Positions 51,911 to 52,192 of a stretch of DNA of 64,000 bases are shown piece by piece. The notes below the pieces were generated by a model. The model saw nothing but the letters and a program-made list of their open reading frames with translations, ran no database searches and was not told the origin of the DNA. Source of the DNA: Chitinophaga pendula (GTDB taxonomy: Bacteria; Bacteroidota; Bacteroidia; Chitinophagales; Chitinophagaceae); assembly GCF_020386615.1 (NCBI RefSeq), contig NZ_CP077769.1, positions 4,092,001 to 4,156,000 on the forward strand. Direction: 5' to 3'. The position numbers were made by a program, and so were the translations under genes. Positions within the stretch are counted from its first letter, which is position 1, and each line of letters starts with the position of its first letter.

Positions 51911-52192
51911 TCATCGTGTTACCAGCTGTATTGTGCTACCGGCCTGGATATTGTAGTCGCTTAAAGTGCGGCCATCCTCCAATTGCTTACCTGCGAAGAT
52001 CAATAGTTGGTTAGAAGGGTCAATACCTTCTACGTCTTTGATTTTCATCTTAACGGTGTCAATAGTATCGCTTATTGATACTTCCAGCGTAATTGTTTTT
52101 CCTTTAAGTATTTTCACATAGATCTGCATAGCGAATGTCTGAAGGCTTAACAGGCAGAGGAATGTCAAGGCTACAATAGCTTTAATTTTCAT
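51911..52192 (-). CDS. Secreted ubiquitin homologue lacking the C-terminal LRGG
   Basis: A 93-residue protein: signal peptide MKIKAIVALTFLCLLSLQTF plus Ala, then a ubiquitin fold starting MQIYVKILKGKTITLEV. By hand alignment 53 of 72 residues match human ubiquitin (about 74%), including the stretch LIFAGKQLEDGRTLSDYNIQ. The hydrophobic patch L8, I44, V70 is kept; K6, K11, K27, K29 and K48 are kept; K33, K63, R42 and H68 are replaced. It stops after R72, so the LRGG tail used for conjugation is missing. Signal cleavage after TFA would leave ubiquitin Met1 as the new N-terminus. Bacteroides fragilis has a comparable exported ubiquitin (BfUbb). Transfer from a eukaryote and interference with host ubiquitin enzymes are inferences. 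Confidence 0.9.
   Translation of the reverse strand: MKIKAIVALTFLCLLSLQTFAMQIYVKILKGKTITLEVSISDTIDTVKMKIKDVEGIDPSNQLLIFAGKQLEDGRTLSDYNIQAGSTIQLVTR

Follow-up and report, generated by a model that had tools for sequence, protein, structure and literature searches.

Ubiquitin is the textbook eukaryotic protein, a tag at work inside plant, fungal and animal cells. What purpose, then, might be served in the bacterium Chitinophaga pendula by a ubiquitin gene that begins with a signal peptide and ends short of the conjugation tail? We addressed this question in a stretch of 64,000 nucleotides of its genome (contig NZ_CP077769.1, positions 4,092,001 to 4,156,000; hereafter the window). BfUbb, the exported ubiquitin of Bacteroides fragilis, has so far been treated as a curiosity of a single gut species, and the 2017 BfUbb paper uses the phrase 'one of a few bacteria' (PMC5705921). 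The same design in free-living soil bacteria, in up to four tandem copies, widens that picture, and a broad exported set in which the conjugation tail is mostly lost poses a testable question about the use of the ubiquitin fold outside the cell, for which the soil bacteria provide laboratory hosts that are not pathogens. We regard this wider class as a more interesting result than the single gene, for which any function proposed here is a reasoned guess.

The ubiquitin gene and its predicted product

The gene lies where a preliminary description of this DNA had placed it (Table 1), on the minus strand, which that description left unstated; the open-reading-frame list puts its ATG start codon at 52192..52190, and the plus-strand reading of the same interval is interrupted by stops. 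The exact joining of a signal peptide to ubiquitin, also claimed earlier, was recovered with a home-made rule: residues 1-21 comprise a basic n-region (MKIK), a hydrophobic core (best 9-residue hydropathy 2.94) and T-F-A preceding the cut site, and residue 22 is ubiquitin Met1. As described before, the stop follows R72, leaving residues 73-76 and the C-terminal diGly of the LRLRGG end missing, and the mature 72-residue protein has neither a Cys nor a tail.

Table 1. Features of the ubiquitin locus, with positions in the window.
Feature	Position	Strand	Remarks
Predicted exported ubiquitin gene	51911..52192	minus	93 aa including signal peptide; stop codon TGA at 51913..51911
Signal peptide, 21 residues, signal-peptidase-I type	52130..52192	minus	home-made rule; abuts ubiquitin Met1
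Ubiquitin domain, residues 1-72	51914..52129	minus	Pfam, AlphaFold2 model, Foldseek
tRNA-His (GTG)	51791..51865	plus	convergent with ubiquitin gene; anchors the variable site
Hairpin flanked by A and T runs	51874..51902		between tRNA-His and ubiquitin stop codon; seen by eye, not listed by a scan
Inserted cargo: ubiquitin gene and upstream region	51907..52508		602 bases between tRNA-His terminator and conserved DUF445 start
DUF445 gene as listed	52378..53100	plus	other flank; conserved part from near 52509

Against human ubiquitin 1-72 we reproduced the earlier hand count of 53 identities in 72; the 19 changes include F4Y, K33V, R42L, K63A, H68Q and L71T, on which the preliminary description was silent, and L8, I44, V70 and K48 are retained, as it had stated. 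The protein thus shares with eukaryotic ubiquitin the fold and 74% identity over 72 residues, and differs from it in the missing diGly, in its predicted export and in the changes at R42, H68, L71, K33 and K63. The Pfam ubiquitin model (PF00240) matched at 88 bits (E 2.7e-25), followed at E <= 0.001 by the SUMO-like Rad60-SLD in second place and by Ubiquitin_2 (below cut-off), with no other model; that only ubiquitin-type models match bears out the earlier view of a true ubiquitin rather than a ThiS, MoaD or TtuB protein. An AlphaFold2 model of the mature part (mean pLDDT 94.4, pTM 0.80; input alignment of 24 bacterial sequences, the window's own included) superposed in Foldseek on solved ubiquitins at 0.4-1.0 Å rmsd in 49 of the 50 rows listed, the remaining row, a K27-linked dimer, giving a bad superposition (10.8 Å). 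The Pfam E-value, the pLDDT and these rmsd values together exclude a chance resemblance to ubiquitin. Nor is the gene a contaminant, since it is carried on one 7.66-Mb contig and an identical 72-aa mature protein (P0202) is found on another contig, of 7,661,303 bases, from a second assembly. The host genome has a single ubiquitin match. Among the 91 relatives listed for a 402-aa protein encoded nearby (E <= 1e-60), Chitinophaga is the only organism named.

By sequence criteria, then, the protein is predicted to be exported, in agreement with the preliminary description, and its gene almost certainly encodes a secreted, non-conjugated ubiquitin, which without its tail would probably be unfit for use as a tag. 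The earlier claim that it cannot be conjugated holds as regards the missing diGly and calls for caution as regards E1, contact with which the loss of GG does not preclude: a covalent bond to human E1 formed in vitro with BfUbb, which lacks GG too (PMC3352274).

The tRNA-His/DUF445 interval

The hairpin in Table 1 is a probable terminator common to the tRNA-His and the ubiquitin gene. On the far side of the ubiquitin gene stands DUF445, found in 70 of 79 Chitinophaga genomes, and the window's locus was set beside those of 29 relatives, the best of the 70, to give a comparison of 30 loci. A tRNA resembling the window's tRNA-His was within reach in 28 of the 29 relatives, with gene order and strands varying (one such tRNA, in L111, is called tRNA-Asp by ARAGORN). 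At most 315 bases separate this tRNA from the aligned portion of DUF445 in 24 of the 28, and more than 800 do so in the other four; in the window there are 644 bases to the conserved start of DUF445 (513 to the start of the listed reading frame) because the ubiquitin gene lies in between, and a relative with the window's order and strand (G010) has 34 bases in place of the window's 602. None of the 28 relatives in which the interval is visible carries a ubiquitin gene there. Instead, one relative (L138:2138-3033, minus strand) has in the same interval a gene for a zeta toxin (Pfam 43.7 bits) and, next to it, a small companion gene; there are shorter frames with beginnings like these in L115, a GT10 glycosyltransferase in L119 and, in L114, also of the long type, nothing clear. 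Given contents that differ across relatives and include ubiquitin in none of the 28, the interval is a small cargo spot, and the ubiquitin gene is a single-gene insertion beside tRNA-His. No direct repeats of at least 12 bases at the insertion were found in 51700-52700.

Tight linkage to a tRNA was considered as a general trait and rejected, none of nine other free-form loci having an adjoining tRNA (one tRNA lay 4 kb off). Two further features of the gene itself were uninformative: its GC content (40.1% vs 45.1% for the window, at the 24th percentile of blocks) is not telling of a foreign base composition, and sigma-70-type promoters numbered one site vs 2.6 expected, with the exact TANNTTTG not found on the minus strand from 52193 to 52508.

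Seven neighbours were scanned with Pfam (three GG-leader peptides, a 402-aa protein without a match, the thioredoxin-like DsbH, DUF445 and a sigma factor), and none is an E1, an E2 or a deubiquitinase/protease of the conjugation-operon kind. This bears on the idea that the protein is conjugated after all, in the periplasm or through an E1/E2 system of its own, an idea for which the fold alone counts and which we judge exceedingly improbable: diGly is missing, the genome holds no second ubiquitin and an E2-type (UQ_con) search of the genome gave 0 matches, although the positive controls likewise gave none. With ThiS, MoaD, TtuB, Pup and the bacterial conjugation operons, the window protein shares no more than the general notion of a small protein with a beta-grasp fold or a tagging role; unlike them, it has no such Pfam match, no C-terminal GG and no E1, E2 or protease among the seven neighbours.

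Predicted exported ubiquitins in many phyla

Bacterial and archaeal genomes, each species being represented by one, were scanned with a query alignment of 11 such domains, using two ubiquitin-core motifs only; 530 stretches matched, 442 of them coding a relative, and the best 80 of the 442 loci were analysed. With a home-made leader rule (a run of hydrophobic residues, with positions -1 and -3 relative to Met1 occupied by small ones), a leader ended directly at Met1 in 62 of the 80 loci, compared with 291 of 4650 internal methionines (6.3%) of long reading frames as a control. The 62 loci predicted to be exported span ten named phyla, with one locus from an archaeal bin, and include all 17 of the records not labelled as MAGs (counted from record titles, with a Prochlorococcus AG genome among them). 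Of the 18 leaderless loci, some resemble plain eukaryotic ubiquitins and may stem from contamination, and misbinning may likewise affect some MAG loci in the exported group. Predicted exported ubiquitins occur in Prochlorococcus, Methylotenera, Conexibacter and others. A ubiquitin family protein is also encoded on a mobilizable plasmid of Ruminococcus albus, its alignment to the query starting at residue 5 and taking in the leader. Loss of LRLRGG at 71-76 was more frequent in the exported group than in the others (56/62 vs 11/18, the motif being kept in 6 and 7, respectively; Fisher p 0.007). T22S, tried as a signature of exported ubiquitins, gave no signal (34/62 vs 9/18).

Free forms, with at most 80 residues after the leader, make up five of the 62, and the other 57 are longer. 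Among 19 of these long forms, hand-picked and scanned with Pfam, 13 bear an autotransporter beta-domain (9), a Por_Secre_tail (2) or an S-layer domain (2); the remaining six comprise one with Ig-like and InlB-type repeats, one with a sulfatase-modifying-factor-like domain, two with matches below cut-off only and two with nothing further. Short forms from Denitrificimonas and Brevundimonas end, by a simple motif, in sorting tails that we take to be IPTL/PEP-CTERM-like. These surface-anchored ubiquitins resemble the window protein in their leader at Met1 and in having mostly lost diGly, and differ from it in their long C-terminal extensions, of which it has none. The 13 fusions favour a structural or adhesive role, in which the very stable fold would serve extracellularly as a passive head or spacer, with the free protein bound to a surface polymer or to the envelope of its own cell. 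We consider this unlikely for the window gene, as it suits long fusions better than a free, secreted protein of 72 residues and leaves tandem divergent copies unexplained.

We tentatively propose, at slightly less than even confidence, that in bacteria of many phyla ubiquitin serves as an extracellular, non-covalent binding module, typically with a signal peptide at Met1 and with its tail mostly stripped, which would be either displayed (on autotransporters, type IX sorting tails, S-layer domains or membrane-sorting tails) or free, the free forms of Bacteroidota mostly ending at or near R72, occurring in tandem and serving bacterial competition; the window gene would be a free-form member. In the literature searched (titles and abstract openings, mostly without subscription papers), we found BfUbb papers and mentions only, with no surface-displayed or Chitinophaga ubiquitins and no description of the tandem ubiquitins of Pedobacter cryoconitis or of the wider exported class.

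Several observations fall beside this class. A search of 50,697 phage records gave 0 matches, and IMG/VR yielded 14 loci, several with signal-peptide-like leaders; in three nearly identical records from viral-collection contigs (L153-L155), a leader-bearing ubiquitin is followed by a PTMSEW-type sorting tail. Six actinobacterial records (L027, L039, L041, L059, L075 and L080) encode leaderless ubiquitins with GVVTYQ within a few residues and, where complete, a tail of ~150 aa; L080, scanned as a twentieth sequence beside the 19 long forms and confirmed to be without a leader, had no further Pfam match. In L014 (G474), the ubiquitin domain lies within a 1647-aa reading frame, not N-terminal in the stretch read, amid repeats that by eye we take to be DUF285/BspA-like.

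Free forms and their origin

Within Chitinophaga, PF00240 matched in 6 of 79 genomes, at more than 60 bits in four, and in overlapping taxonomic draws that each contain the window's own genome it matched in 7 of 244 genomes of the family, 4 of 298 of the order, 3 of 395 of the class and 6 of 395 of the phylum. DUF445 was found in four of the other five ubiquitin-bearing Chitinophaga, with the ubiquitin far from it. Among these congeners, the ubiquitin of G030 ends in LVVR, and those of G018 and G012 end in LAIREI and LVIRN, have a linker between leader and ubiquitin domain and have lost L8. In Pedobacter cryoconitis S3M1 (L048), the design is the same, a signal peptide followed by a ubiquitin ending at R72 (LVLR, LVLR and LALR) or at R72+P (MIRP), and the difference is that four copies stand in a row, one of which (2929-3219) has 72% identity to the window's mature part. 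Flavobacterium KJJ has one copy, ending in VLSNPCP, and G844, with the same gene order, has two in tandem, ending in LRTPPCN and IRKEM. Altogether, five of the 11 free Bacteroidota forms, the window's included, end at R72 and three more stop at most two residues away; of the Dyella proteins, which lie outside Bacteroidota, two end in VLRL and one in LRLRGG.

Across ten free-form loci compared, no gene other than ubiquitin is common to all. Three Dyella loci (L030, L037 and L093) conserve a gene of 370-458 aa without a Pfam match directly upstream of the exported ubiquitin; its product is a possible partner, and free forms therefore need not all act alone. Five loci of Chitinophagaceae (L005, L006, L009, L011 and L013) hold a second, far-diverged exported ubiquitin-like family, with an EPxPHPNN[LI]YVK stretch between leader and domain and 24-32 bits to PF00240, L013 falling below the cut-off.

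A tree of 99 ubiquitin domains over 72 columns had no starred branch, gave a p-AU of 0.563 for a single origin of the four Chitinophaga proteins and placed three of the four on branches flagged long. Two whole-database protein searches produced no closer bacterial relative among the best 120 of nearly 8000 rows each; the named rows besides the window's own were, among the matches listed, eukaryotic or giant-virus ubiquitins only. The preliminary description derived the gene from a eukaryote. Ultimate eukaryotic ancestry stands, but the case for direct transfer out of a eukaryote looks weak: since the fusion of signal peptide to ubiquitin recurs across bacteria, a bacterial donor or ancestor seems at least as likely as a direct eukaryotic source.

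Selection and surface change

Eukaryotic ubiquitin is among the slowest-evolving proteins. Relative to the human sequence, the window protein is changed at 5% of the positions listed as core, 22% of those listed as the I44 patch and 38% of the other surface positions; low change in the core and high change at the surface is as expected for a folded protein under constraint. Pairwise dN/dS among the four Pedobacter copies was 0.10-0.21 for the whole gene and 0.07-0.24 for the mature part (several dS >1), values that place these exported ubiquitins under purifying selection. Between G844 and Flavobacterium KJJ, the ubiquitin had dN 0.109 and dN/dS 0.30 compared with dN 0.032-0.082 and dN/dS 0.024-0.085 in four neighbours, the ratio of 0.30 resting partly on a low ubiquitin dS (0.36 vs 0.38-1.39 in the neighbours) over 96 codons. 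Positive selection was not detected, dN/dS being <1 in all comparisons. A recent eukaryotic gene in decay, or a functionless annotation accident, would accord with the patchy distribution and with the lack of a partner gene common to all free-form loci. We think it improbable in view of the intact signal peptide, a core changed at 5% while the surface varies, the identical second assembly, purifying selection in relatives and the recurrence of the same design in many phyla.

Chitinophaga shares its habitat with fungi and protists, and the preliminary description suggested a mimic or decoy directed at eukaryotic ubiquitin recognition. On this view, as taken up here, the ubiquitin system of soil eukaryotes such as fungi or amoebae would be disturbed by binding of the protein to their ubiquitin receptors or E1. 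Retention of L8, I44, V70 and K48 favours such a mimic, as does precedent, a plant-parasitic nematode secreting a signal-sequence ubiquitin as an effector; the secreted ubiquitin of the nematode Globodera rostochiensis shares with the window protein a signal sequence before ubiquitin, and differs in being a eukaryote's own protein, with a 12-aa extension, that acts in plants (PMC5705921). Protection of the I44 patch, considered as a sign of receptor binding, was discarded, 956 of 10000 random sets being as low (not significant). With the patch without clear protection, with R42, H68 and L71 lost here and L8 lost in G018 and G012, the decoy claim is weak. A route into the eukaryotic cytosol was not seen, and Prochlorococcus, Methylotenera, Conexibacter and others would seem to have no obvious eukaryotic partner in common. 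We accordingly hold a eukaryote-directed mimic to be doubtful.

Comparison with BfUbb and a candidate role in antagonism

BfUbb, cited in the preliminary description, is indeed the nearest known case. Jiang et al. reportedly found its target to be an essential peptidyl-prolyl isomerase, bound by way of a C-terminal disulfide. With neither a Cys nor a tail, the mature protein in the window is unlikely to share that target, and we file the gene as a variant of the BfUbb kind, not BfUbb itself, within an exported class of which we found no description. Both share a signal-peptidase-I leader at Met1, a ubiquitin core, no GG, sporadic presence and a site with toxin genes elsewhere; compared by description, BfUbb differs in its 76-residue mature form with another last-four tail, where the window protein has 72 residues and another host family. 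BfUbb is also identical to human ubiquitin at 48 of 76 positions (PMC3352274), vs 53 of 72 here, and its activity has been shown, whereas the window protein is known from sequence.

According to the 2017 paper, on which the preliminary description does not draw, BfUbb is a secreted inhibitor of other B. fragilis strains, the synthetic mature form acts on sensitive strains while bovine ubiquitin does not, an immunity protein is inferred to be unnecessary and a HigBA toxin-antitoxin pair replaces ubb in 73 of 97 B. fragilis genomes (PMC5705921). That BfUbb seems to do without an immunity protein fits the lack of a shared gene besides ubiquitin in our ten free-form loci. The preliminary description also offered a toxin-like reading, which we retain in kind and redirect: it should point first at bacteria, as BfUbb does at B. 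fragilis strains (PMC5705921). Because BfUbb inhibits rival bacteria and R42, H68 and L71 are lost here, antagonism is the better guess than a eukaryotic decoy.

Our best explanation of the window gene, which we advance with some reserve and at slightly under even confidence, is an exported, non-conjugated antagonism factor. The Sec system would export the precursor, and signal peptidase I would cut before Met1 and free a stable 72-residue ubiquitin fold into the periplasm, from which the mature protein would pass to the surroundings. There it would act by non-covalent binding of a partner, most likely a cell-envelope protein of competing, related bacteria, a choice suggested by the analogy with BfUbb, the patchiness of the distribution, the tandem copies and the rapid change at the surface. 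The part of this account in which the protein acts like BfUbb against competing bacteria is plausible but tentative. In its favour we count the exact join of leader to Met1, the stop at R72, the patchy presence (6/79) and the tandem copies in relatives and, by analogy, the zeta-toxin at the same site in L138 and HigBA in place of ubb in B. fragilis. Against it stand the 57 of 62 exported forms longer than 80 residues, which would suit adhesion or display equally, the upstream gene in Dyella, the 0 of 9 other free-form loci with a tRNA and the linker in G018 and G012. Exported bacterial ubiquitins are possibly weapons against rival bacteria.

Across the tRNA from the ubiquitin gene, three ORFs of 57-59 aa (50626-51407, minus strand) have GG-type leaders (..IKGGG) and Cys-rich cores. 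These bacteriocin-like peptides may be unrelated neighbours, or may lend circumstantial weight to antagonism. One of them matches ComC and, below cut-off, a bacteriocin-like leader model; as a query it gave ten matches in its own genome (itself included) and 0 in 78 other Chitinophaga. C39 peptidase has seven matches in the genome, none within the window. The gap that holds the peptides measures 1618 bases here, compared with 270-854 in the 20 relatives with both flanks in reach.
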